Assembly (NCBI GenBank): GCA_035578155.1
Contig: JAPWDM010000001.1
Span: 162,165,498 to 162,229,497, forward strand
Source: Brachynemurus nebulosus
Lineage: Eukaryota > Arthropoda > Insecta > Neuroptera > Myrmeleontidae
Direction of reading: 5' to 3'
DNA: 64,000 nucleotides
A model generated the notes under the pieces. It made no database searches, was not told the origin of the DNA, and saw nothing but the letters and a program-made list of their open reading frames with translations. Numbering within the stretch: position 1 is the stretch's first letter; every line of letters begins with the position of its first letter. The position numbers were made by a program, and so were the translations under genes. This document shows positions 12,481 through 47,458 of this stretch, piece by piece.

Positions 12481-13466
12481 GAACAAATTTAAACATCTAA
12501 ACATCCAAACTTTCACATTTATAATATTATTTAGATATTAATTTTTGTTAAGTTATATATAAACCGATATAGAACTTAAACTTTTTTTTTAACGCAATTT
12601 AAAAATACTGAAAATTTAAAAGGATAAAATATTTTTACCAAAAAAAGTCATAAAATTTATTACGGTCTCGAAAACGGTCAATTTTTTTTTTTTTTATTGA
12701 AGTGTGAAATGTGAAGCCAGATAAGAGATACAAGCCCTCAAAGTATAAAATTAAAATTTGATTATATTTCAGGCACAAAATAACACCCATCAGCGCAAAT
12801 ATATGCTTAATTATTAGCTGCGTACTTATATCAGCATGATTTGTAAGTATTTTTTTTTAGTAATTACTAAAAATGTTTAAATTTTTTGACCGAATAAATT
12901 TAATTTTGTAGATGTAATGTCAAATACCTTTGGAAACGAATTCCGGTAGCAGTCAAATCATCCCATCCGGAATTGTTACAAATATGGACGGTCGGGCAAC
13001 ATATGTGGAAAAGAGATTATCCCGCGACGTACACGGCACTTTGTGCGGCAACTTGATCAGAATCTCTCAGTGAAATTATGAAAGTATTAACTGGTATGTA
13101 AAATAATTTTTTTGCGGTACATTTGGATATTTTATAACCTCAATCGATCAATTTTTTCAGTAAATGTAAAATCGCGTGCAATAAATTTAATTGCTCAAGC
13201 TTATTCCTCGCTTTCGGTTGAGCCTGTGTCGGTAATGACGGGTCTAAATGCCGCGGAAGTGGCAAAAGTGGCCGCAGAACATGGATGGAAAGTGGAGCCG
13301 GAATTTAATATGACTCTTCCGTGTCGGCCGGTAATTGTTCCTACGGGTGAAACCTCGAGCGAGGACCAACTTTATAAACTTACGGAATTTGTTTTGTTTT
13401 TAGAAAATTAATAAAAATATTAATTTATATATTTATTTAAATAATATTTGTAATTGATTGAATAAA

Positions 13467-21403: not shown

Positions 21404-21774
21404 AAATACATACATATAATGATAATGAGTACAATGAATACTAAGAATTCATACAAATGCGTATGATGTTTCTTTCATTCATCAAACAATTTTGTAAAAG
21501 AATACTACAGAATGTAGATAAAAGAGAACGGTCGGTGTCTAATTTCACTACGTTTAGAAACGATGTCAAACGTAAAAGTTAATTCTATTGTTATAATTAA
21601 AAACTAAATACGTAGACAAGAATCACACGTCAGGGAAAAAATGTTTTTTTATCATCATTTATTACACAATAGTAGATTAGTTGAATTTAATAATTTGAAA
21701 TTATAGTGGCAAATTTCTTAAGTACTAATACTTAATAAAATCTATTCAGTTGGAACATTAATCAAGGGTTTTAT
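21101..21774. other. Non-coding stretch
   Basis: No gene seen. Confidence 0.35.
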
Positions 21775-21898
21775 TAGTCGAATTTTCTCCGAAAAATTAG
21801 ACTTATACAGTCTATACGATAAGAGCTGCGAGAGGCGAGACCAGGGGCGCTATCCGTTTTCGGACCCGTAGAACACGATTATGTAAAAAAAAAAGATG

Positions 21899-22067
<169 letters not shown>

Positions 22068-22388
22068 CCCGCAACCTTTTAATATGTGTAGGGCCCCCCT
22101 ATGGAAGTTAAGAGATGAAATTTGGTAAGTGGGGCTTATTCCGATGCACAACAATACTATCAAAGTGGGGTCAAATTTTGGGCAAATTTTTTTTCGGACC
22201 CGACCTTTAAGGGGGTCGTGGGGGGCTGAAAAGCAATAAAACTTTTTCAAACCGGTTTTAAATAATGTTTCGGTCAATTATCTACAACATATCCAAAATT
22301 CAGCTTCCTAGGATGATATGGTGGGAGTAGAGGGGGGAAAAACGATTTTCGCTGGATCTAACAGGCCCCCAGCCCCCCAGAATTAACG

Positions 22389-23030
22389 TAGAGGGTTGAA
22401 ATTTGGTGTGTTGATAAAGTTCGTACCTAGGTTGTGCTTTTTGGAGGTTTTAATATTTTACCCCCACCCCCCTCATTTTTAAGCTACAATTTCATGCATT
22501 TTCGACGTTTTCGAAGTTTGTACCACTCGCACAGGTCACCCGAATAAACCTAGAGGGCTGAAATTTTGTATTGGGATTAAGTTAGTATCAAGGGGGTGCC
22601 TTTTGGGGGTCTCGACTTTTAACCCCTACCCCCACCATTTTTATACCCAAAAGAACATGATTTTTCTTGTTTTTTAACAGTTTCGTTCGGGTCAAAATCT
22701 CCCCAAATAAACCTAGAGGGCTGAAATTTGGTGTACAGGTTAAGCTAATAGCCAGACACTGTTTTTTGGAGGTTTCAACTTTTAACCCTTACCCCCACGA
22801 TTTTGACGCCAATATTTCCTTAATTTTTTTGCTTGTTTTCTAACACGTCTAGAGACTCGATAAGGAAACCTAGAGGGCTGAAATTTTGTACGTGTATTCA
22901 GTTAGTATCCAGCTAGTACCTTGTAGGGAGTCCGCATCACTTTTCCCCCCACTTCTCCCATTTTTACATCGGAATTGAATGCTATTGTTAAATGTGTTTT
23001 AAAAGCATTATGTTTATTCTAAATACAAGT
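22389..23030 (+). repeat. Four ~160-bp tandem units in copy A
   Basis: Units start near 22,389, 22,551, 22,714 and 22,871, each with AGAGGG.TGAAATTT.GT, then a GGAGGTTT-like or GGGGGTCTC-like motif and a C-rich run. A weaker unit may precede at 22,111. The same array is present in copy B from about 31,036. Confidence 0.85.
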
Positions 23031-23570
23031 AGGCGAATAGTAATTTTAAAAAATTTAAAAAAAAGTGAACTTACTTTTATGACAAATGAAATACATACAT
23101 ATTAAGTAATTTAAAAATGTTATTAAAGTCACTGTTTATTTATAAATTAGGAATTTTGGATTTTTAGTATTTATAAAATAGAAATTTTGGATTTTTTTGG
23201 AAAGAAAAAATATCTTTATAAAGGCCTTCCAGTTTACTATTTAGGTCCTTTTTTAATTTTTAAAACTAAAACATAAAGGCAATTAGCGGATAAACATGGG
23301 CAGGAATGTCCTCGTACGAATTGTGTTGGCTTTTTTTCTGCTACCTGTTTTCGGCACAAAATTGAAATTTACTGAGATACAGCCCTTAAATACTTAAAAC
23401 CTTTTTTTAAAGCCTCGATCAGCCGAACACTCATCACCAGTTTTGAAACCAACAAAATGACAATTCGGTTGTAGACTTTCAATCACATTTCGCTTGTAGA
23501 CATTCAATACCGAAGATGAAGGGGAAAATTCGACTACCGTGATGGGGCCCCGCTGCTCACGGCGTTTTTA

Positions 23571-23978
23571 TTTATAAAATAGAAATTTTGGATTTTTTTG
23601 GAAAGAAAAAATATCTTCATAGAGGCCTCCCAGTTTACTATTTAAGGTCCTTTTTTTAATATTTAAAATAAAATTAAAACACAAAGGCAATTGGCGGATA
23701 AGCATGAGTAGGAATTCCCTCGTACGAACTATTGGTTTTTTTTTCCCGATAACTGCTATCGGCATAAAATTGAAATTTACAGAGATTCAGCCCTTAAAAA
23801 CTTAAAACCTTTTTTTAAAGCCCCGATCAGCCGGACACACATCATCACTTTGGAAACCACCAAAATGACAAATCGCTTGTAGACTTTCAATCACATTTCG
23901 CTTGTAAACATTCAATACCGAAGATGAAGGGAAAAATTCGACTTCCGTGATGGGGCGCCGCTGTTCACGGCGTTTTTT
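23571..23978 (+). repeat. Extra diverged tail of the 1.8-kb repeat
   Basis: A second version of the last ~400 bp of copy A (compare 23,170-23,570), from TTTATAAAATAGAAATTTTG to CACGGCGTTTTTTT. It differs from copy A's own tail far more than copy A differs from copy B. It is probably the remnant of an older insertion next to which copy A landed or recombined. Confidence 0.75.
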
Positions 23979-25721: not shown

Positions 25722-27450
25722 TAGTTATAATTAAACATTGTAATACTGACAACGGTAACGAAAATATAAAATAAAACACTCAATTATTATCATGTAAATT
25801 GAAAGAATAAATTTTATAAATGTGCTATTATTGTAGAAGTTAAGATAATTGAGTGCTAAAATTTTTCTGTAAACTTCAAATATTGTTCTATTACATACAT
25901 GCGATTCACACTAAAATATCAAAGAAAAACTAGATTAGAGACAAAAAAAAAAGAAAAAAGTCAACAAAACAAATTTTCTTTCTTTTCTTTTAATCAATTC
26001 AAAAGTGTCGGCTTCTAGGAGCCTCATAACAAATTTCTATCATAGTCCCGAGCTCAAGTCGCGTCATGGCAGTGGCTGTAATGGCTGAATTTTCGATTCG
26101 AAAATTCGCTAAAAGAATCAAAGAATCATCTTGTGAGCTAGGTCTTATGATTTTAATTAATTAACATAAGTAGGTCTGTGGGGTTATTAAAATCAAAATT
26201 TGAAAGGCAGACCATATTTTGTAAAATATGCATAATTTTACATAAAATATAAAATTTTCAAAGAATCATCAGATAAATAACACTGATTTGAGTTACTTAT
26301 AAAAATTAATTAAATATATAATTTGATCTAGGTATTAATATTTTAGGATACATTTTCGATTAATTTAGACTACTTCCAATTTCCAAATAGTCATCTGGTG
26401 GGGTAGTCAAAAACACGATTGGAGCTTCGTCTATATACACGCTTTTAAATGATGAAACTAATCCTTCAACTATAATCTTAAAAATTTAAAAATTTCATCA
26501 ACTATTAAACTTTTGAGTTCCAACTTTGAGGGATGCTTCACCCCTTAAAATCGATTTTACACTAACTGGCATTTTTTGTGTTATTAGCTAGCCACCCTCT
26601 ACGTACTGGCGAAGTTTCAGATTTTTTTGAATTTTCGACTTCTTGCGGTTACTTTGTAAATTTAGCTGCAGATATACAGATTACGATGTTCACGAGAAAT
26701 GTGCGTCATCCTGTATAATTTCTTAAAATAAATAAAATACCAATATTTATCTCTAAATTTTCATGGCATTCCATGAAAATTAAACTATTTTAGGTACGAC
26801 TGAATCATAAAAGCCTATTTTATTATACTGTTAAGAGATATAAAAAGTATTGCTTTTTGGCACTAGTTGCATAATGAAAAGCAAAAACCACTAGTGCCAT
26901 AAAGAATAATAGTCTACTTGATAATTTTACAATAAACAGAAAAAAACACTAACTTTATTTGTATACCATATTTACAAATGTTGGCATAATTAATATTAAT
27001 TACACAATCTGAATCATTATTAATATTTATTCCAGGCAGCTTTTTCTCCTTTCTTTTTTAAATATTAATAAGTTTTGTTGAAAAATCTTTTAAAAATGCT
27101 CCAATATTTTATTAGCTTTAGATGACAGATAATAACCAAACTATACTTTAAACACAATAAATTTGTCAATGCCAACTATATATAAAATACATTTTTTATT
27201 TAAAATATAGACGTGACATTTATAAATTCGATTTTTATCGATAACTAGGAATTCTAACAGTCGTACATAAAGCTTTGTATGCAACTTATACATAATTTGA
27301 CTTTATGAACTCGCCTTTTTTTATTGGCCTCGCTCGCAAGCTCGCTCAGCCATAAACACGGCTCGTTCATAAAGATCTTCATTATGTACTTGTTGCATAA
27401 ATAGCTATTACAAAACGGATAAAGTCAAAAAAATAACACATTTTTGACAA
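25722..27450. other. Non-coding stretch, 1.7 kb, with repeat fragments
   Basis: Holds an inverted R1 fragment (26,009-26,115), a hairpin around GGCACTAGT/ACTAGTGCC (26,860-26,903), and a paired segment at 27,268-27,405 (TTGTATGCAACTTATACATAA and its mate). No gene seen. Its end gives way to the first RNA-gene promoter. Confidence 0.45.
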
Positions 27451-27491
27451 TTCCCATAAGTGACATGATGTAGCAATATTAAGTATATATA
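27451..27491 (+). promoter_or_regulatory. U6-type promoter of RNA copy 1 (PSE-like + TATA)
   Basis: TTCCCATAAGTGACATGATG at 27,451-27,470 is followed after 13 bp by TATATATA (27,484-27,491). The same 20-bp motif precedes three other copies at the same distance. A proximal sequence element (PSE) plus TATA box at fixed spacing is how insect U6-class genes recruit RNA polymerase III. The motif itself is new to me. Confidence 0.65.
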
Positions 27492-27516
27492 CAGCTGTTG
27501 TGTTCGTTTTCCCTTG

Positions 27517-27633
27517 AAATTAAGGCTAAAACTAATCGGGAAAATGGTAACTTATAAAACTTTGACATAAATTAACGATATATACCAGTTAATAGGAGTA
27601 AAAAGCATGTTAAGTGAGTAAGCCTAATATTTT
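27517..27633 (+). ncRNA. Unknown Pol III-type ncRNA, copy 1 (decayed 3' side)
   Basis: The 5' part has the family core AAAACTAATCGGGAAAATGG and GTAACTTA. The 3' part ends AGCCTAAT and then TTTT. The 3' strand of the main helix has drifted (GTTAAGTG in place of TATTAGTG) and the CACCG block is lost, so pairing is weak. Promoter and about 40 bp further upstream match copy 2, which suggests a tandem duplication before the intervening transposons arrived. Probably a decayed copy. Confidence 0.55.
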
Positions 27634-28848
27634 CTTTAAAATTTCGCTTCAATACACAATAAACATAATATGTGAAGAGCAGCAGAATAAAACTTCATAA
27701 ATCAATTTTGAATGAAAGTGACTTTTTTTCGATTCAACTATCACCGAATTGATCAACCACGGATCAAATACTGTTAAATCCTCTTTAAATATGGCTTTAA
27801 AAACGTGTCTCTGAACGAAAGCCAGCAAATCAAGTTCGAAACATAAGAAGACAAATTCTTTGAGAAAATTAACCGATGATGATATTATGAATCAAAACTG
27901 GGAAAAGCTTTCATTTTTTACGTTTTTGAGTTAACAAGACTTCTTGATTATGTCAGACCAATTTTGGATGAGACGAGCCGAAAACAACTGGGCAATTCCA
28001 TGGAAAAGGTTCCATAATTGAAAAAAATAAATAATTGTTATTGGTAGTAAAAATACGTTAATATACTTAGTGCTAAATTCCAATTATAACGCATATAGCC
28101 TTGGATGCTGCGCGTTTAAATAATAATAAATAAATAAATAAATACGTTAATATGATGGCAACACTATATAATAGTACTTTAAGTTCCCAAAATTTCAATA
28201 AAAGTTTGTTTTTAGTTTTTTAGAAATAGTGTAATTTTCAATGTTTTGTCGTAAGTATAAGCTAATAGTGTATTTTATAGTGGTGTTTTAATTAAATTTT
28301 CACGGCAAGTATTTAGAATTATTGTAATCCTAATTGAATCCTTAACGGGAATAGAATTTATTATAAATTTACAGATTTTGAAAAATCTTAAGAAATTTTG
28401 TATTTTAGGTAATAAATAATAAAATAAGTACATTTTTGTACCTTTAAAATTATTTTAAAGTTCCTATTTTATGTCCTTTAGTGTCAGTTTCTAGGATTTC
28501 ATTTAAAAATACTACTTTTTTGCAATTCAAAGTGATGGTAGTGTCAGTCACGTTTTGATCTGTACTGTCAGTCACGAATTATTTTTTGAATAACTACTTT
28601 TCTAAAAAAGTAAAGTCTTTCATTTTATCATTTTCCAATAATTTGTTTCATATACTTCAGTTAAATATACAATTTAAAATTATAACGGCTGTACATAAAT
28701 CATATTTCACAACTTTATTTGTGCACACTTTTTATTACAGAGGGATAATTGGGGTATCAACTATAAAACCATGCTAAAATTGAAACTGTAAACATAGTGA
28801 TATTCGTAATATAAGGCAAAATAAAACGTAAATTGTGTCAAATGTAGA
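27634..28848. other. Non-coding stretch, 1.2 kb
   Basis: No gene supported. A short (TAAA)n run lies at 28,125-28,143. The stretch 27,730-28,020 has slightly richer codon-like composition but stops in all frames; it may be an old transposon or gene scrap. Confidence 0.35.
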
Positions 28849-28857
28849 GTCAGCCAC

Positions 28858-30264
28858 GGCTCCATGCTGCTGGCACACCATCTGAAAAGTTAAACATTGA
28901 AAAAATTTTGTCTAATAGGTCACAAATTGGTCATAATTGGTCACTTAGTCCTACTAATTGGTCAGCAGTAGAAAATTTTTAAATAAATTTTAAAAAATTT
29001 GTAAAAATTTCAAGGTCACTCAAAAATTTTGGCACACCATCTAAAGAAAAAAACAAAAATAATAAGAGCAGTCGATAGGATTTTAAACCTTGATAATTGG
29101 TCAGTTAAAATAAAAAATTGGTCAGGTCCCCAGAATTAAAAAAAAATTAAAAAAGGCCTTTTCATACTGTCACGCATGCGCGAAATCTCTACTGGTAAAT
29201 CTAGCTGTCAGTAAATCTAATCGATACGTTGAATTTTTCAATAGGGTAAAGCGACCAGCATTCGATTAGCCTATATTAGCATTATTTTTATATATTAAGG
29301 TATTTTGAAAATAATCAACAAACATTAATTATATTTATTGTTTTGATTTCAACTTTATTTTCTGGCATTTTAGTAATTAACTTAATTTATAAGTTCATTT
29401 AGTTATCAATTTTATTATAAACATTTTTAAATACTATAAGATCTTTAATTGGAATATTGAAATTTTTGTCCACGCAAATTTGCCCTATTATATTTCTTCG
29501 AAAATAAACGTTATTTCCTTATGACCCATTGTTAGGGCTCCGCGGTCTTAGCACCCCAAATGTGCGATTTCGAGGGACCAATTAAATCGTTCAGAAGGTC
29601 TGAAATTGGTCATAAAAGGTCAACTGATTTGATTAATTGAAGAGCGATAGAAAATTTTTTACTAAGGTTTAAAGTTCTTTCAAGGTCATTCAAAAAATTT
29701 TAGCACCTCATATGTGAAATTTTGAATGACAATTAGATCATTTAAAAGGTCAGAAAATAGTCATAAAAGGTCAATTGATTTGAATAATTGGTCATTGATA
29801 GAAAATTTTTTTATTAAGGATTCCAATTTTTCAGAATCATTTAAAAATATTGGGTTGTCGAATACTGGTGGCTTTGCCGTATTGAAAAATTCAACGTATC
29901 AACTAGATTTACTGACAGTTAGATTTACCAGTAAGATTTCGCGCATGCGTCACAGTATGAAAATGCCTTTTTTAATTTTTTTAAAATTCTGGGGACCTGA
30001 CCAATTTTTTATTTTAACTGACCAATTATCAGGGTTTAAAATCCTATCGATTGCTCTTATTATTTTTATTTTTTTCTTTAGATGTTGTGCCAAAATTTTT
30101 GAGTGACCTTGAAATTTTTACAAATTTTTTAAAATTTATTTAAAAATTTCCTATTGCTGACCAATTAGTGGGACTAAGTGACCAATTATGACCAATTTGT
30201 GACCTATTAGACAAAATTTTTTCAATGTTCATCTTTTTAGATGGTGTGCCAGCATCGCGAAGCC
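28858..30264. mobile_element. Mutator-like/foldback element, 1,407 bp
   Basis: Exact 9-bp TSD GTCAGCCAC on both sides (28,849-28,857 and 30,265-30,273). The ends are GGCTCCATGCTGCTGGCACA and, inverted, GGCTTCGCGATGCTGGCACA. The inverted arms are about 390 bp (to about 29,246 and from about 29,880). The interior has diverged repeats of the arm motif with GGTCATAAAAGGTCAA. The 9-bp TSD, GGCT start and long arms match the element in CSN8 intron 1. The 126-codon frame at 29,726-30,106 is part of the repeat and not a gene. Confidence 0.88.
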
Positions 30265-30444
30265 GTCAGCCACATATGGAATTGCCCAACTTGTAACTCA
30301 CAATCAGTGATTATATTGATTGTTTGCAAAATAAAATAATTTAAGAAAAATTAATGAATATAAAGAAGATATGAGATTAAAAAATACATAGTTTTATTTA
30401 AATTCACTGTCACAAAACTTATTGGTAAATAATTTTACTCTTTT

Positions 30445-32229
<1,785 letters not shown>

Positions 32230-32791
32230 GATTTTTGGTATCTCTTATTTTCTGTTACATGAAGTATACCTGTATACAAATTGTTAAATATTCATAAATT
32301 TAAGTCAATTAATCTCGCGAAAAATGTTTTATATTTTTGTAGTTTAGATTCCATCAAGTTTAATAATTCCTCAGATTCAACATTGAACTATTCTCGTAAC
32401 ATAACTCACATACGCAGGGCTTTCATACTTTTGAATAACTTCGGTTAAAATGCCACGTAAAATTGAAATGTTGATGTAAAAAATTATTTTAGCGACTATT
32501 TTGAATTGGCAAGTGGATTAGTTACGCTAGTTACCTATAGTGGACTCCAGTAATCAAGTCCAATAAAATAGTCTACTGTAATTCACGCTTTACTGTCTAC
32601 TCGTCTTAACGACATAAACCGACTAAGTTTACGAATGGATGACGATATCCACGGACACAACCGCTACCGTGTATTTTTTATTAAAACAAGTAAAATGAAA
32701 ATATTTATCCTAGAATTTTCATGAGTTTTTCGCAATTATTAAACAATGTGTCAAAGTATATAAAGTTAGAAAAATAATACATTTCTAACAT
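32230..32791. other. Non-coding stretch between copy B and RNA copy 2
   Basis: No gene seen. The last 40 bp (from about 32,755, ATAAAGTTAGAAAAATAATA) resemble the corresponding region upstream of RNA copy 1. Confidence 0.4.
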
Positions 32792-32832
32792 TTCTCAGAA
32801 GTGACATGATGTAGCAATACACAGTATATATA
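32792..32832 (+). promoter_or_regulatory. U6-type promoter of RNA copy 2
   Basis: TTCTCAGAAGTGACATGATG (32,792-32,811), 13 bp, then TATATATA (32,825-32,832). This is the best-preserved version of the promoter in the window. Confidence 0.7.
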
Positions 32833-32858
32833 CACAATTATATGAATTAAACTATGTA

Positions 32859-32985
32859 ATTAGGCTGAAACTAATCGGGAAAATGGTAACTTACAAGAAC
32901 TTTCTGAGTTCACAATATACCGTCGGTATGAAAGCAAGCAAACTTTATGTTGAGCACCAGAACCGTATTAGTGACTATGCCTAAT
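32859..32985 (+). ncRNA. Unknown Pol III-type ncRNA, copy 2 (best copy)
   Basis: RNA of about 125 nt. The ends pair: TTAGGC with GCCTAA, then an internal loop (TGAA against GACTAT), then ACTAAT with ATTAGT and CGG with CCG around one bulged T. The loop keeps AAAATGGTAACTT and ATATACCG. T-rich sequence follows (TTATTT, then TTTTT at about 32,994). Start is placed just before TTAGGC, about 34 bp after the TATA box. No match to U6, U6atac, 7SK, RNase P or MRP that I recognise. A bulged end-helix around a variable loop resembles the architecture of Y RNA/stem-bulge RNAs, but the sequence does not identify it. Confidence 0.62.
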
Positions 32986-32998
32986 TATTTAATATTTT

Positions 32999-33931
32999 TG
33001 ATAGTCCACAATAAACAAATGGTGTCAAATTGAAAACAAAGCAGTCCTCATTAGTGATGTCGAGCTGAAGAGAAATTAGTTGTTTAATCGACTAAAGTTA
33101 TTTTTTATACGAAATTATTCTTTAGTCGAAAATATCAAGTACCTAATAGTCGAATAATCGACTAAATTTTTAGTCGATTCCATGAATGGGGTAACCTATG
33201 TAATTCTTTCAAAAAAAATGTTTAATAGTCCTCATATCTTTGGAACAAGTAATTAAAATTTATCAAAACCGGTTGTAGAACATGGAGGGGGAACCATTAT
33301 GACCACAGAATAATCAGAAACCAAGTTGCTATCTCTGCACTAGTGATACCACTGTAGACAAAAAAAAACCCTCTACTTCCCACCACTATGTTATGTAGGT
33401 ACACACTGTTTGTAATGGTGTTGGTTTTATGTTTGCTTCTGTGTGAGTATTCATACACACAACTACAAAACACGTATTCTCGGACAGAGCAACGTGCAGT
33501 TCAAGTAACAATGGTTTAAAAATACATTACAATGCATTGTGCGTTCGGTAACCGACATCGACCAACTAAATGCCTTAAGCGGTATCGGCCACACACAGAC
33601 ACATTGGTATCCACAATTTTTTACACATACGCTTAGGGCTTGATTATGACCAATATGAAATCTTCTGCGATCAACTCCTTAGGCTCTAACACCCACAACC
33701 CTATTTTTTAAAATTGTAAGACCCCCTTGTGGTACATCATTGGAAAACTCTATAAAAATGTTATTCATTAGTACCCAACTTATATCACTATAGAGATTGT
33801 CGAGATTGAAGCAACTAATTTTTGAAATTAAAAAATAATCTTATTAGCTGATACATTAATATAATATCTTTAGGTATAATACGAAATAATTTCAACATCA
33901 TAAACTAAAACAAATTATTAAAGTTTACTAA
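32999..33931. other. Non-coding stretch between RNA copies 2 and 3
   Basis: Contains TAGTCGA/TCGACTA-rich sequence at 33,070-33,185, probably a transposon scrap. No gene seen. Confidence 0.4.
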
Positions 33932-33972
33932 TTCTCACCTGTGACATGGTGAAGTATATTTCAATGAATACC
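33932..33972 (+). promoter_or_regulatory. U6-type promoter of RNA copy 3
   Basis: TTCTCACCTGTGACATGGTG (33,932-33,951), then 13 bp, then the weak TATA-like TGAATACC starting at 33,965. The distance from the motif to TTAGGC is 69 bp, within 1 bp of the other copies. Confidence 0.6.
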
Positions 33973-33998
33973 TGCTTCCGTTTAAATATAGTTCGTAT

Positions 33999-34132
33999 AA
34001 TTAGGCTGTTACTAATCGGAAAAATGGTAACTAAATAAAAACATATCCTTATTATACCGTATAAACCGCCTACTTGTCAACAATACTTGGTATTAGACAG
34101 CAGCACCGTATTAGTGATTGGGCCTAACTTTT
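33999..34132 (+). ncRNA. Unknown Pol III-type ncRNA, copy 3
   Basis: The end helix is intact: TTAGGC/GCCTAA and ACTAAT/ATTAGT with CGG/CCG. The internal loop is TGTT against GATTG. The middle (about 34,033-34,095) differs strongly from copy 2 apart from ATTATACCG. A strong T8 terminator follows GGCCTAAC. Conserved ends with a freely varying middle argue for selection on the helix. Confidence 0.62.
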
Positions 34133-34139
34133 TTTTCCG

Positions 34140-34731
34140 TTACTTTAATTATTCTAAATACACCGAGTATTCGTTTGGTAATATACTTTGAATAGATGGG
34201 AATGATATTATATTTCTTTCTCGTTTTAACTAAGGATTTGAAATATGCAGGATGATAACTTTGACTGGCGAATTCGATATGTATAATACAAGTAATATTA
34301 AGTATGTTTTCAATATATTTTAATGTAAAATATTTACTAATCAGATAAAAACTGAAACTGTTACCAAAAAAATAAAGAAAGAAGTTCTGCTGTCAAAATA
34401 TTTTACTGCTAGGAATGTTATGGAAGTGTCTCCAGCGATTTTTAACATAATATACTGTAGTATTGGGTCGTAGTATACTTCCAATCGGCAACCGATTTTT
34501 TTCAAAATAGTGTAACAGTGAGTAGGTGCAACTTGAAATATGGACTTGCTCCCCTGGGAGGGACCGGGGGCAATATTTCGAAAATTTTTATAAAACGTAA
34601 TTTGTATAAATTTTAATTTATACAACAACTTTGTTTTCAATCGCAAAATAAATTTTTATTCTTTATAACCTTTGAACCGAATAGTCTTTTTCATTGAGTG
34701 TTTTTGCCTTTTATTCACAAATGCTTATATA
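34140..34731. other. Non-coding stretch
   Basis: Open for about 100 codons on the minus strand (34,646-34,341), but the sequence has no recognised protein match and the tail is hydrophobic and AT-driven. I do not call a gene. Confidence 0.4.
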
Positions 34732-34970
34732 CAGTGACTTGTCAAAAGTATATGGACAATACAATTTTGCATTCTTTATCAGTTTAACAGTTGGATCGTT
34801 AAATAATAATAATTAACACAAAAAAATAATAAAAAATCAAACTTCGGCTATATGTAGAAAGAAATTACAATTATTTTTTAAGTTAATTATTATTATTTAA
34901 TAATCCAACTACTGTTAAACTGATAAAGATTGCAAAATTTTATTAACCAAATACTTTTGATCAGTCACTG
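34732..34970. mobile_element. Tc1/mariner-like MITE, 239 bp
   Basis: Inverted ends CAGTGACTTGTCAAAAGTAT and (read inward) CAGTGACTGATCAAAAGTAT, with TA flanks. The two halves are largely complementary around the centre (ATAATAATTAACAC and GTTAATTATTATTA). Confidence 0.85.
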
Positions 34971-34972
34971 TA

Positions 34973-36724
34973 TATTATATCAATCTCTTATCAGTTATTA
35001 CTTTCTGATCCTAGCCCCTCTCACCAAGTAAGTTTTATTTTACAAATATTGTCCTGATGATAGACAAATATAAAGAAACATAGAAACATATTATGTCAAA
35101 AATTATGTGATTATTGTCAGTTAAAAAAGCTCACAAAATAACAGTAAAAGTTTAATTTTAAGTGGGACTTTTATCATAAAACAAGGAAATACAACCGTAA
35201 AATTTGCTATTATATAATATTTATGAATTTATAAATGTAGAACAATAACATAGCAGTAATATAATAATATGTATTAATTCACGATCCTATTTAATATATT
35301 TGGTTATTCAATTTACATAATATCAATTACGATCTGAATTTTTAGGTTCTATAGATACAATAACAAAACGCACAAAAAAAAAAAATTATTAACGGTAAAA
35401 TTTGAATTATTTTTTGAAAAGAGTTAATTAAAAAATTTTTTAAACAAAAAATAATTTACAGTTAACAAATAATTTTGATTTGAAAGGCACCAATAACAAA
35501 TTTTTTTCCATTGATACAATTATTTTAATAAATAATTTTTTTTTTCATTTTTTGTATAAAATTTTGTATCGTATCTATATGTATGTATACAACAATATTT
35601 GAGTGAAAGTAGTTCAGTATTTTTGATAATTGAGCAAAAAAGGTACCATAATACGTTTCTTTTAAAATTCTATGTATTATTTGTTATAATGAAATTGGAT
35701 ACTTTTTTTAGTGTTCCGTACCAAAATTGACAAAATTAAGCACGTATGTAATCTCTTTCGTCTCCGTCTGTGTCTGAAACACAATATGAAATTTAACACG
35801 GGGGCACAAGGTGGTGGCCCAATTATAGAAAGTTAAATTTTGATTCTGGCATTCATTTTAGGGGATAACCCGAAAAGTGGTAAAAAAGAGTACCGTGTCG
35901 AATTGTCAAGAGAAGTTTATTGAAGGGCGAATTTAATAATTTTTTTGGGAGTGGAGGAGTGAAAGGGAGTAATAAAGAATGAGATGTAAATTGAGCGAAA
36001 ATTATCAAAATTAAAAAATTCAAGCGCGATCAATTGTTATTAGCTATCAAATTCATGTTTAAAAACAACTGATTATACGGAGCACTATTTGTGTAATTAC
36101 GACTTGCTGATGACCAATTTTTTTATTAAAAAAACCTACATAATACTCAATTATTGTAAACTTATTATGAAGAAATTAAAGACAATAACTAATTTCATTT
36201 TCCAGCTTTTGTATGTTGCAATAAAAACCAGTGGCGGTAACAATTTCATCTATGAAGAAGAAAAATTATCTTATTTTTTCTGTTATTACTTTCAATATTT
36301 CGATAAAAGTAAAATATGATAGTTAAAGTGGTTGTGCGCACTAGCGATTAAGAAACTACAAAATCGCAAAAGAGTTTAACAATTACTGTCGCAAATTAAA
36401 ATTGATTAATTTTAAAATTTTTTCTCCCAAAATCTTTTTTCTGTCGTCTTCCTAATTTCTAATCCTCATAATTTTAATTCTTAACAAAATATATTTATTT
36501 ATTCTATTAAATGTTGGTTCTCAGCGTGCTCTAGGAATTCCCTCTTAATATTGTGTTACAAAAATAATTTTTTAAAGTCTTTATCTCACAGACTATACCT
36601 TAGAATTGCTTGAAATTTTAACAGTCTGTCTATTATAATCTACTTTTAGATGTGAAAAGAGATTATTATAATCTCTTTTAAATGTGCCAATTACATTAAA
36701 GCTAGAAGTTCCTAGCTAACTAGT
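34973..36724. other. Non-coding stretch, 1.75 kb
   Basis: Includes GTGTTCCGTACC at 35,712, an end-like fragment of the repeat family seen at 48,015. No gene seen. Confidence 0.4.
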
Positions 36725-37017
36725 CATAGGCGGGATTTGCGGGGGGGGGGGGCAAGGGGGCGCAACTTCCCCCCCTGCCAGATTCCGTGCGAATAAGAAA
36801 TTAGAAACTTATACAAGATTTATTAAAATGATAGAGCAGAAGACAAAAGGTGAGGATGCAGAAATTAAGTCAAGCATTTGTCAACCTGAACTGGTTTGAT
36901 AGCAAACCAGTTCAGTAACAAACCAGCAAAATATAATAGTTTGAGAATTTCACACGGCGGTTTTTATATTAAATATATTTCTTGCCCCTCAATATTTTCC
37001 TTGAAATCCCGCCTATG
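36725..37017. mobile_element. hAT-like MITE with G-run, 293 bp
   Basis: The ends CATAGGCGGGATTT and AAATCCCGCCTATG are perfect inverted repeats. They are flanked by TAACTAGT and ATACTAGT, an imperfect 8-bp duplication. The interior has a G13 run at about 36,739-36,752. Confidence 0.7.
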
Positions 37018-37248
37018 ATACTAGTCTCAATTATAATATTGGTAAGTTAGGATTCTTTAACAGATTACTTTGTAATTTTTTTTTACAGTTCTAAGAAATA
37101 CAATATACAGTCGAATATCTAATATTACTGAATACTGATTACATTCAAATATTTTGTTTTCTTATCTTACGCTTTCATTTTGTATCTCTTGAATTAAGTC
37201 ATTGTTTTACTAATTAATTAGGTATGCATAGTTATTTAATTTTAACAC
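37018..37248. other. Spacer upstream of RNA copy 4
   Basis: AT-rich, nothing recognised. Confidence 0.4.
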
Positions 37249-37289
37249 TTCTCGTTTGTGACATGATGCAAACTTTTATAATAAATACA
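37249..37289 (+). promoter_or_regulatory. U6-type promoter of RNA copy 4
   Basis: TTCTCGTTTGTGACATGATG (37,249-37,268), then 13 bp, then TAAATACA (from 37,282). The TATA box is weaker than in copies 1 and 2. Confidence 0.6.
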
Positions 37290-37317
37290 TTTTTTTTTCG
37301 GAATCGTACTTACAATA

Positions 37318-37636
37318 ATTAGGCTGAAACTAATCGGGAAAATGGTAACTTAAAACTCTATGGAGTTGATAATATATGTAATATACCGCATTGGGAATAA
37401 TACAGATCGATTATAAAATGTAAATAAATTGATCACCAGCACCGTATGGGCCCGTCCACACGCTCAAGCTTTACCACCGACTTACCTGCGCAAACCAGGT
37501 TTGTGCAAGTAAGTCGCTACGTTTTTTCCCGGCCATACGTACATGTTTACTTGCACAAACTGGTTTGCGCAAGTAAGTCGGTGGTAAAGCTTGTGTCGTG
37601 TGGACGGACCCTATTAGTGACTTATGCCTAATCTTT
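37318..37636 (+). pseudogene. ncRNA copy 4, interrupted by a MITE
   Basis: Family 5' part is intact (TTAGGCTGAAACTAATCGGG). The loop has ATATACCG and CACCAGCACCG, and the 3' part TATTAGTGACTTATGCCTAA is followed by TCTTTT. A 164-bp MITE splits the 3' strand of the helix exactly in CCGTAT|TAG. A T6 run inside the MITE (near 37,522) should stop RNA polymerase III before the 3' helix strand is made. The insertion is bounded by a TAT duplication. Confidence 0.6.
37448..37611. mobile_element. 164-bp MITE inside RNA copy 4
   Basis: The ends GGGCCCGTCCACACG and CGTGTGGACGGACCC are inverted repeats, and TAT flanks both sides (37,445-37,447 and 37,612-37,614). The uninterrupted site is seen in copies 2 and 3 (CCGTATTAGTG). 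The element folds almost end to end (AGTAAGTCG and CGACTTACT arms). A 3-bp TSD suggests PIF/Harbinger, though TA plus one base is possible. Confidence 0.85.
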
Positions 37637-38899
37637 TATCAATGAAGAGTAAAATTTTTACTCTTACTTAAATTTATTATGACCAAACATATGATTAATC
37701 ATAAACACACTTACGGGGAGAAATACCTTTAAACGGGTGAAAATAAAGATGAATTCGGGAATTTTTTAATACTGAAAAAATTTTTGAAGTTTGAAGTTTG
37801 ATTTTTGAAGTAAAGGTTCCGCTTTTCCTCTTAAGGTACGGAACCCTAAAAATGGCGACTGCAAAAATCTTTTATTGGAGCGGGTCACTTATCAAAATCC
37901 CAAACAGCGGGCAATTTGTGGTACTTTGAAAAATTTAAAATTTTTTTCCATATAATAATTAACATAAAGTTAAATAAAAAAAATAAAATAAAAAAAGTAA
38001 AAAAACTAACCAATTTTAACCATTTTTTAATTTTAACCATTGTTTATTTCGATGAAAATTTTATCTAGTTTCCTATTAAAAAATCCTTTTCTTCGGCTAT
38101 TGGAAAAGTTTGGCTAGTTTGGTATAAATGAGAAAAATCAGTGTAATAGTTTTTGAATGAAAATTTCCAACAATTTTAAAATTGTTTAAAAATTTTGTAT
38201 GTCTAATATCGGTGTTTAATTTTACGATTGAAAAGTTACAAGAGGGGGAATTAACAAAACCTCGTCTTTACAAACAGGGGTTAGAAATCAAAAGTAGCAA
38301 AAAGATAGAGTGGCTAAGAAAAAATTTGCATCCCCAAATTTCAATACCAAAAAATATAACACACCAAGAAGTTAAAAAAATTTTTTATTTATCATTGAAA
38401 TCTATAATAGTATATACTTGCAAAATTTCATATTCATAGTAGCAGAGATATATAAATTTTGAAAGTATGACAGATAGGCACGACGAAACTGTAAGAATTC
38501 CGAAATTTCTTCTTCGGAATCCTAATAACCACTCAAAGAATTCTAAAAGAGTGCACTAATAGATGCTAGTGGGTTGATAAATGTTTTACAATAAATCATT
38601 AAATTAATTTATTTTCAATAATCTTTTTTAAAAATTACTCAAATTCATCCATTTTTTTGAAAATTTCACACTCAAGCATATTATAGGTACATAAATATTG
38701 CGATTACATTAAAAAAAAAAAAAAATAAAACACAAAATACAAAATACAAAACAGTTAGAATAACTACTTCTTAATAACTTGGAAACACGATAGTATGCAA
38801 AAATACATCTTTTAACTGCGCTTTTGTAGGGAAGGAAATCATTTATTTCTCTTTGTTTAGTTTTTAATTAAGTTATTAAAAGGTTGTTAAAATTACCTT
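37637..38899. other. Non-coding stretch with a repeat end
   Basis: GTTCCGCTTTTCCTCTTAAG followed by GTACGGAACCCT (37,816-37,847) is the inverted counterpart of the repeat start at 48,015. CGGAATCC near 38,514 may be its far end. The 85-codon frame at 38,182 has no recognised homology. Confidence 0.4.
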
Positions 38900-44759: not shown

Positions 44760-44849
44760 ATGCTCATGCTCATGCTCATGCTCATACTCATGCTCATGCT
44801 CATGCTCATGCTCATGCTCATGCTCATACTCATACTCATACTCATACTC
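44760..44849 (+). repeat. (GCTCAT)n array, left arm
   Basis: About 15 hexamers, mostly GCTCAT with some ACTCAT, just inside the left end of the foldback element. Confidence 0.95.
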
Positions 44850-47339
44850 TACTTGTTCATACTTACTTTGCTTCATTTGCTTACAATAATTTTCGTATAA
44901 CATTTCCAATAATTTTTGGGATGACTTTTCGAGAGGGTGTTATTAGTAACCATAAACTTTCAAGATGTTAAATTATTTTTTATTACTCATGCGGGAGAAG
45001 TACTAACTTAACGCACACATTTCTGTACGCAAAATAGCTGTTTGTCCACTGTACTCTTCCCGCATACTTTTTTGCGTGTGGAAAGTAACTTTCCACACGC
45101 AAATTGACAATAGAACACGCAAAATTTAATCAAAACACGCAAAGCCGCCTCTTAATTTTTCATTTAATAAATATTTCATAATTATTTCTATAGAAACCAC
45201 CAACAAAGTAATTTAAACGATAATTAATTCAGAAAAAAAAGACAAACACTTAAAAATATTATTTTAAAAAGTAATAAAAATGTCAAAAATAGGTGATAAT
45301 AATAGAGAAAAGTATGTGAAATTCGTAATAAAAAATAGTATGTGCAACTCGTGCGGGATTGTCGATTGCCCCACTCAAGCGAATGAGCGCACTCACTACG
45401 TTCGTGCGCTCAACTTCGCTTCCGTGGGCAATCGACAATTTCCCACACTTATTGCACAATATACTATTATTGCTTACAACAAATATCACCCTATGTTCAC
45501 TCCAATTGTATTTAAATTTGTTACCTGTTTCACAAGCAACGGTTTCTTTTTGCATTCATACAGATAAGTAGGTAACATGCTGCGAACAATACTGCTGATT
45601 ATTGTCGTACTTGAAAAGTCATCTCATTTAAATATTGAAAAACTATACTTACGTACATAAATTATATACCTACATTTTTTCAAAGTCTGCGTTGAAATGT
45701 ATTCACAATTATTGTCAATAGTTTTATGAAGGGTCATCTTTTGTTATATTTTTCACAACTTGGACTAGTGAAAGTACATATTTGTACAGATTAATTTCTT
45801 TTATCTAATAAAAACAGGTAAATTTTTAAGAAATTGTTCTAAATAGATATTTATGATAATTGTTATTTTCTTATTTTTAATATGAATTTATATAAATATA
45901 AAATCCTTATATAGAGTCTATGTCAGATTAAACTTTTTTAGTTAGTTAGACTAAAGTTATATAATATTATGATAATAATTATTCATTCAATCATTTGTTG
46001 AAAGGTCTATCATTATGTGTGTGGAGATATTTGGATAACTAGTAACTTTTCCTATAAATTAAAATATATCAAAGAATGGACAGATTTTTATTTTATCTGT
46101 ATTAATTATTTTGAGTTTAAGAAATATTGCCCTAATTTTTAAAGTTTTATTCTTGTAAAATATTGCATTAATTTGTACATCGAAATTTGTATGTTTGACT
46201 GTATTGCATATTTGTATGAAATTTTTCTAATGCATAATCGTCGATTGTTAACTATCGAAAAATTTTCCAATGTCATTTTTGGAAAAGCTTGTTAATTTTA
46301 AATAAAACAAGGAACCGATAGGTTAATTGATTGTTAAAATTTTATGTTACTGATGGGACTAAAATTATGTGCAAGCTTAGTTTTTAAAATTAAACATTTA
46401 CAGATTGATGGTTTACATGATCTAGTAGCAAAACAGTAATTTTCATTATAATCAATAATTACCAATGCCTTATATTGCATAGAATGTAAAAATGTACAGT
46501 ATGAGAAAACGGTTAGAAATTACTGTCCTCCACTATTAGCGTCAAAAGTATCGCCCAGAGAAATCTTGAACATAGATCAATATTTAAATGAGATGACTTT
46601 TCAAGTACGGCAATAATCAGCAGTATTGTTGGCAGCATGTTGCCTACTTATCTGTATGAATGCAAAAAGAAACCGTTGCTTGTGAAACAGGTAACAAATT
46701 TAAATACAATTGGAGTGAGCATAGGGTGGTATTTGTTGTAAGCAATAATAGTATATTGTGCAATAAGTGTGGAAAATTGTCGATTGCCCACGAAAGCGAA
46801 GTTGAGCGCGAGTGGGGCAATCGACAATCCCGCACGAGTTGCACATACTATTTTTTATTACGAATTTCACATACTTTTTTCTATTATTATCACCTATTTT
46901 TGACATTTTTATTACTTTTTAAAATAATATTTTTAAGTGTTTGTCTTTTTTTTCTGAATTAATTATCGTTTAAATTACTTTGTTGGTGGTTTCTATAGAA
47001 ATAATTATGAAATATTTATTAAATGAAAAATTAAGAGGCGGCTTTGTGTGTTTTGATTAAATTTTGCGTGTTTTATTGTCAATTTGCGTGTGGAAAGTTA
47101 CTTTCCATACGCAAAAAAGTATGCGGGAAGAGTACAGTGGACAAACAGCTATTTTGCGTACAGAAATGTGTGCGCTAAGTTAGTACTTCTCCCGCATGAG
47201 TAATAAAAAATAATTTAACATCTTGAAAGTTTATGGTCACTAATAACACCCTCTCGAAAAGTCATCCCAAAAATTATTGGAAAAGGTATACGAAAATTAT
47301 TGTAAGCAAATGAAGCAAAGTAAGTATGAACAAGTAGAG

Positions 47340-47458
47340 TATGAGTATGAGTATGAGTATGAGCATGAGCATGAGCATGAGCATGAGCATGAGCATGAGC
47401 ATGAGCATTAGCATGAGCATGAGAATGAGTATGAGCATGAGCATGAGCATGAGCATCC
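47340..47458 (+). repeat. (ATGAGC)n array, right arm
   Basis: Reverse-complement counterpart of the left array, with about 20 hexamers including ATGAGT variants and one ATTAGC. It is longer than the left array. Confidence 0.95.

Follow-up and report, generated by a model that had tools for sequence, protein, structure and literature searches.

What kind of gene recurs four times on one strand of a 64,000-nucleotide (nt) stretch of DNA from the neuropteran Brachynemurus nebulosus, and with which class of RNA, if any, does it belong? The stretch, called the window here, spans positions 162,165,498-162,229,497 of contig JAPWDM010000001.1 (C1) in a genome of 960,095,421 bases and 138 contigs. A first-pass annotation, made from the letters of the window, had described the four loci as a clustered family of small RNA genes that could not be named. 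Our analysis suggests that they belong to a family of structured RNAs with an RNA polymerase III (Pol III) type 3 promoter, which probably act as scaffolds of a ribonucleoprotein (RNP) in the manner of Y RNAs. The list of animal Pol III RNAs is short, and the family would be a concrete candidate for what the protein Ro60 binds in this animal. Below, c1 to c4 denote the four copies in the window, and L010 to L015 and L017 denote copies elsewhere in the same genome.

Four Related Units in the Window

All four units were found on the + strand at the places first proposed for them, with TTAGGC or TTAAGGC at positions 27520, 32860, 34001, and 37319. The shared 5′ block that had been noticed was recovered as a 21-mer, ACTAATCGGGAAAATGGTAAC, which is exact in three of the four copies and carries one mismatch in the remaining copy. 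The nearest non-member within the window differs from it at six positions; at one mismatch or fewer the 21-mer occurs four times, whereas 30 first-order Markov shuffles gave 0.0 occurrences on average. When c2 and c3 were the only sequences used to build a covariance model, that model recovered c1 (41.0 bits, E 4e-6) and c4 (40.8 bits); below them came, at 22.1 bits (E 0.03), an echo of c2 on the antisense strand and, at no more than 19.5 bits (E at least 0.1), unrelated places in the window.

The 3′ ends bore out the first description in part. Among the window copies the 3′ block, ACCGTATTAGTGA, is intact in c2 and c3 only, whereas it is degenerate in c1 (GCATGTTAAGTGA) and split by an insert in c4. 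T-runs of four to eight residues follow the 3′ ends (Table 1), and because TTTT occurs by chance within 20 nt at 26% of window positions, the terminal T-run that had been listed as a shared feature is weak evidence within the window itself; it is much better borne out by the full-length copies outside the window, where T6-T8 directly follows GCCTAA in six of six. The insert in c4 is a young miniature inverted-repeat transposable element (MITE), which was found at 41 places in the genome at 99-100% identity (this one included, among the best candidates scored; 925 candidates at first look), 38 of these 41 being on C1. Near-identity between this insert and its other copies points to a recent disruption of c4. 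The window copies are the weaker members of the family, and c1 and c4 have probably lost function or are losing it.

Promoter and Polymerase Class

The upstream motif at fixed spacing, which had been proposed as a promoter, was confirmed as GTGACATG, located 60, 59, 60, and 61 nt before TTAGGC in the four window copies. When the upstream 23-mer was scored with a leave-one-out position weight matrix (PWM), the omitted copy reached 20.3-26.1 bits vs. 11.4-15.7 bits for the best non-member in the window. This proximal sequence element (PSE) is kept in nine of the ten full-length copies in the genome (L013 has lost it), and TGACATG is present in all nine, 55-63 nt before TTAGGC. The family TATA pattern follows 23-24 nt past TGACATG in seven of the nine.

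The first-pass annotation had invoked the PSE plus TATA arrangement of insect U6-class genes, and the same elements indeed occur in the U6 genes of this genome. The Rfam U6 model gave seven matches, five of them at 117-118 bits, and these five genes carry a PSE that follows TTCTCAnnnn-TGACATG with minor deviations (four have TGACATG itself, one has TGTCATG). In all five, the TATA pattern lies 22-24 nt past TG[A/T]CATG, and the +1 position is 52-53 nt past TGACATG. The U1 model gave 11 matches; in the six genes whose upstream 90 nt were read, CTCTC was found at -59/-60 every time, and neither TG[A/T]CATG nor the TATA pattern was found in any. According to passages of PMC9841428, insect promoters that combine PSEA with a TATA box belong to Pol III, and those that combine PSEA with PSEB to Pol II. 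The presence of a U6-like PSE and TATA element, missing from the U1 promoters read, points to Pol III as the likely polymerase, and on these sequence features the family promoter is likely of the Pol III type 3 (U6-like) class.

Transcription by Pol II, as a family of small nuclear RNA (snRNA) type comparable to beetle telomerase RNA, appears very unlikely. Beetle telomerase RNAs have Pol II type 3 promoters according to passages of PMC13023368, two copies (c3 and L017) depart from the TATA pattern, and a short stretch, CACAATAAA, recurs in both c1 and c2 ~30 nt beyond the 3′ end, all of which would suit such a class. On the other hand, the combination of TGACATG and TATA in seven of nine copies matches U6 and not the U1 genes read, the RNA ends at T6-T8, and a 7-mer resembling a telomere template is lacking in all ten full-length copies.

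Three further loci were noted during the promoter comparison. A U6-like sequence at C80:778,796-778,902 (L031; 95 bits) has no recognizable PSE upstream and is a probable U6 pseudogene. L056 and L057, two of five PSE-like places found, were rejected as family members, with a best family-model score of 13.8 bits and no Rfam score. At L056 (C1:157,556,464-157,556,486, - strand), sequence that matches neither the family model nor Rfam is preceded by a PSE and, at roughly the expected distance, a TATA-like element; this is either an orphan Pol III promoter or a chance arrangement.

Copies Elsewhere in the Genome

A genome-wide search with the 5′ block identified 11 family loci, of which ten are full-length and one, L015, is a 5′ half (Table 1). 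At three mismatches or fewer the block occurred at 40 places vs. 15 for a reversed control pattern. Family members accounted for nine of nine places with zero or one mismatch, two of four with two mismatches (L015 and L017), and none of the seven that were read among the 27 places with three mismatches, a sample that a very diverged copy could escape. Searching with the 3′ block (three mismatches or fewer) returned six places, all of them members already found, and one place for its control. L001, the only match in exact-pattern scans of genome contigs and viral contigs, is missing the block's second half and was dismissed as chance.

The clustering described for the window is partial at the scale of the genome: six copies lie within 264 kb of C1, three more lie elsewhere on C1, and two are on other contigs. 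A covariance model (R2, alignment A2) was built from nine copies, with c4 omitted for its insert and L015 as a half copy. Across the 264 kb that include the window, the model recovered exactly six copies, namely five training copies and c4; it matched L015 at 34.5 bits and gave no match (E up to 10) at nine places judged to be chance. With 11 loci in 960 Mb, vs. 41 scored places and 925 candidates for the MITE, the family is unlike a high-copy transposon, in keeping with the gene family first proposed. The copies outside the window offer clean probes, and the covariance model can be used on public genomes. L013 resembles L012 from the TATA stretch onward and has no PSE; it is a natural promoter-loss duplicate and a potential control for expression.

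Table 1. Coordinates of the family copies and their parts. Positions of c1 to c4 are those of the window; T-runs are counted from the 3′ end of the unit.
Feature	Position	Strand	Basis or remarks
c1 PSE	27449..27471	+	leave-one-out PWM; motif as in U6 promoters
c1 TATA element	27484..27491	+	TATATATA
c1 RNA unit	27516..27633	+	block match and covariance model; 5′ block intact, 3′ block degenerate; T4 at +3; probable pseudogene
c2 PSE	32790..32812	+	leave-one-out PWM
c2 TATA element	32825..32832	+	TATATATA
c2 RNA unit	32856..32999	+	H1 TTAGGC/GCCTAA, H2 ACTAATCGG/CCG-T-ATTAGT; GCCTAA ends at 32984; T5 at +11
c3 PSE	33930..33952	+	leave-one-out PWM; one change, GTGACATGGTG
c3 TATA position	33965..33972	+	weak, TGAATACC; fails the TATA pattern
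c3 RNA unit	33997..34136	+	T8 at +2
c4 PSE	37247..37269	+	leave-one-out PWM
c4 TATA-like element	37282..37289	+	TAAATACA
c4 RNA unit	37315..37637	+	interrupted by insert; T4 at +3
c4 insert	37448..37611	+	164 nt, near-palindromic, MITE-like; TAT on both sides
L010	C1:136.5 Mb		member by 5′ block and flanks
L011	C1:161.98 Mb		member by 5′ block and flanks
L012	C1:162.09 Mb		member by 5′ block and flanks
L013	C1:169.3 Mb (169,347,100-169,347,900)		close relative of L012; PSE lost, TATA stretch kept
L014	C74		member by 5′ block and flanks
L015	C1:132.4 Mb		5′ half only; PSE and 3′ half absent
L017	C95		member by 5′ block and flanks

Conservation and Predicted RNA Structure

Segment identities were calculated without gaps for five copies that carry the PSE and lie outside the window; two of these come from the same cluster region. 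The PSE was 86.4% and the RNA 5′ block 94.4% identical, vs. 44.5% for the spacer between PSE and TATA, 30.9% for the spacer from TATA to the start, and 30.4 and 29.9% for the upstream and downstream flanks, respectively, the flank values being near random for the base composition. Such a contrast between elements and flanks is as expected from purifying selection on the promoter and the RNA ends. Status as a small RNA gene is supported, at the level of sequence, by the promoter, the terminator, and conservation among paralogues.

These values bear on whether the family could instead be decaying or dead, or a mobile RNA-derived repeat without function, which we regard as quite improbable. The damage in c1, c4, L013, and L015 and the occurrence of tandem as well as dispersed copies would fit a family of that sort. 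However, its elements are 86-94% conserved vs. ~30% for the flanks, T6-T8 is retained in six of six outside copies, the loci number 11 in 960 Mb, and the window copies resemble one another only over the 5′ part of the RNA and ~100 nt upstream of it.

For a family of structured RNAs, the reading favored here, the distance from TTAGGC to GCCTAA is 126-150 nt in the copies outside the window. The ends are complementary and form two predicted helices, H1 (UUAGGC/GCCUAA) and H2 (ACUAAUCGG/CCG-U-AUUAGU), which are poor in c1; they are separated by an internal loop of the UGAU/GACUAU type, and H2 carries a bulged U. In the alignment, 95.4% of the cells in the named helices pair, as opposed to 27-41% when the helices are slid. 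The middle of the RNA had been described as freely variable, which is true of the inner loops but not of TATACC[G/A], a motif absent from that description and present in ten of ten full-length copies; UGGUA could pair internally with UACC(G or A). Past GGTAACT, a hairpin (AACUC/GAGUU-like) was predicted in seven of the ten (L014, L010, L011, L012, L013, c2, and c4) and was not predicted in c1, c3, or L017. Compared with shuffled sequences, fold z-scores were -3.5 for c2, -1.9 for c3, and -3.6 for c4 with its flanks joined across the insert.

Proposed Role and Ro60

A scaffold role is proposed because the layout of the family, with closed ends, a conserved core, free loops, and several paralogues, is like that of protein-carrying RNAs such as Y RNAs. 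In this proposal, SNAPc and Pol III would direct transcription from a start a few nt upstream of TTAGGC, and H1 and H2 would close the resulting RNA. A protein would bind the conserved core, made up of GGGAAAAUGGUAAC, AUACCG, and the H2 bulge, and the two inner loops would be free to vary. By analogy with Y RNAs, the product would not guide by base pairing but serve as an RNP scaffold or a protein sink. We suggest more tentatively that the family might constitute a previously undescribed Pol III RNA class with an RNP of its own, unrelated to curated families and comprising about ten genes with fixed ends and free loops, which possibly serves Ro60 in place of a Y RNA.

Ro60 itself would be the most testable partner, albeit a doubtful one. 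A Ro60-like exon (L064; C1:169,094,189-169,094,521) has PF05731 (TROVE) as its sole match (38.6 bits; positions 55-177 of the 442-position profile), and its best chain in the PDB is Xenopus Ro60 (E 2.6e-18). The exon is located ~253 kb from L013 on the same contig, and a copy of the MITE lies ~1.4 kb away from it.

Several observations weigh against the favored reading. In H1-H3 no base pair shows a change of both partners, and each of the 500 shuffles attains the observed covariation values, so the case for these helices comes from complementarity. The c1 sequence folds no better than its shuffles (z -0.3). The TATA pattern is absent from c3 and L017, the 3′ block search recovers only six of the 11 loci, and the conservation is among paralogues. 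Damaged members include c1 and c4 as well as L013, which has no PSE, and L015, which has neither PSE nor 3′ half; inactivation seems to have struck several copies, c1 and c4 among them, and this damage marks the family as prone to decay. Finally, the connection to Ro60 amounts to the presence of the protein, since the Y RNA motifs tested for were not found in the family.

Other Features of the Window

A 1.8-kb segment with (TA)n and internal repeats occurs twice (21771-23573 and 30441-32220, 97.9% identity), the second time just 5′ of c2, and is either a recent duplication or a mobile element. An inverted pair of 879 nt (44760-45638 and 46577-47426, 94.7% identity) contains (ATGCTC)n and (GAGCAT)n arrays. 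The window also carries a gene for CSN8 (COP9 signalosome subunit 8), at ~12,773-12,822 on the + strand with two exons at ~12,913-13,411; PF10075 matched the open reading frame of the second exon. The best named relatives of the CSN8 exons are from beetles (Rhamnusium, 60%; the firefly Abscondita, 64%), and the first named non-beetle ranks 24th among the 52 matches. By eye, the second exon has an in-frame TAA (AQIYA*LLAAYLYQHDL), which may mean that the gene is a pseudogene, that the codon is polymorphic, or that the assembly is wrong at this point.

Comparison with Known RNA Classes

Rfam 15 gave no match in the window at the gathering threshold. At E values up to 10, a scan of 27.4-37.7 kb, of c2, c3, and the 5′ part of c4, and of five outside loci returned only chance matches far below the cut-offs, to models of CRISPR repeats, twister ribozymes, small nucleolar RNAs (snoRNAs), microRNAs, and viral and bacterial RNAs. 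A search for transfer RNAs found none. The 5′ block string was absent from the paper texts searched, and word searches of the literature, which did not extend to supplementary files, gave no such family. Hence, as first suspected, the family appears to be undescribed within Rfam 15 and the literature searched by string and word. With sequence ends placed by us at the T-run, the C box of C/D snoRNAs was found in none of the ten full-length copies and the terminal A-N-A of H/ACA snoRNAs in one.

7SK RNA is ~300 nt or more in length and has GAUC as its signature. The family RNAs, in comparison, measure 126-150 nt between TTAGGC and GCCTAA outside the window; GATC occurs in only two of ten copies rather than in all, box B in none of ten, and Rfam arthropod 7SK gave no match. 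An insect 7SK or another known Pol III RNA (U6atac, RNase P/MRP, or vault) that has diverged beyond recognition is a highly improbable identity, even though 7SK, vault, and RNase P/MRP RNAs are likewise Pol III classes of structured RNA, the type 3 promoter would be appropriate, and the abstract of PMC8406779 describes the primary sequence of 7SK as variable in protostomes. None of these classes gave an Rfam match to the family, a comparison made with the Rfam models and without a search for the genome's own 7SK, RNase P, MRP, and U6atac genes.

The TTAGG-like end prompted a comparison with telomerase RNA, an identity that was abandoned because none of the ten full-length copies has a template-like 7-mer for TTAGG or TCAGG (CCTAA/CCTGA), the telomere motif of the species itself not having been determined. 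Insect telomerase RNA is a Pol III product in Hymenoptera and a Pol II product in Lepidoptera and Coleoptera; passages of PMC13023368 describe a template in the beetle RNAs and two paralogues in Tribolium. The family shares a snRNA-type promoter with insect telomerase RNA but differs in having no TTAGG or TCAGG template, a promoter of U6 rather than U1 type, and ten full-length copies.

Y RNAs and stem-bulge RNAs (sbRNAs) share with the family the size class, a Pol III-type promoter of their own, paired ends, a bulged stem, a 9-bp upper stem, variable loops, a U-tail, and several paralogues. A true Y RNA or sbRNA homolog, too diverged for Rfam, is nevertheless improbable. The Ro60-like exon would be consistent with homology, as would the lack of any Rfam Y_RNA match genome-wide, a weak negative given that the control genomes gave none either. 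Passages of PMC4726728 cite reports of Y- or sbRNA-like RNAs in Anopheles and Bombyx. Against homology, the loop motif UUA[U/C]C is lacking in ten of ten full-length copies, the upper stem (ACUAAUCGG) has no UG-CA core, and copies scanned alone at E values up to 10 gave no Y_RNA match. Moreover, the UGAU/GACUAU internal loop stands where passages of PMC4450293 place a single bulged C between the stems; the marks of Y RNAs and sbRNAs compared here are those given in that paper and in PMC4726728.

The remaining comparison is with the U6 snRNA genes. Although the family RNA is unrelated to U6 by the Rfam U6 model, and [A/G]TG follows TGACATG in nine of nine PSE-bearing family copies as opposed to none of the five U6 genes, the two have in common the form of the PSE, the spacing of the TATA element, a putative start ~53 nt after TGACATG, and a T-run after the gene.

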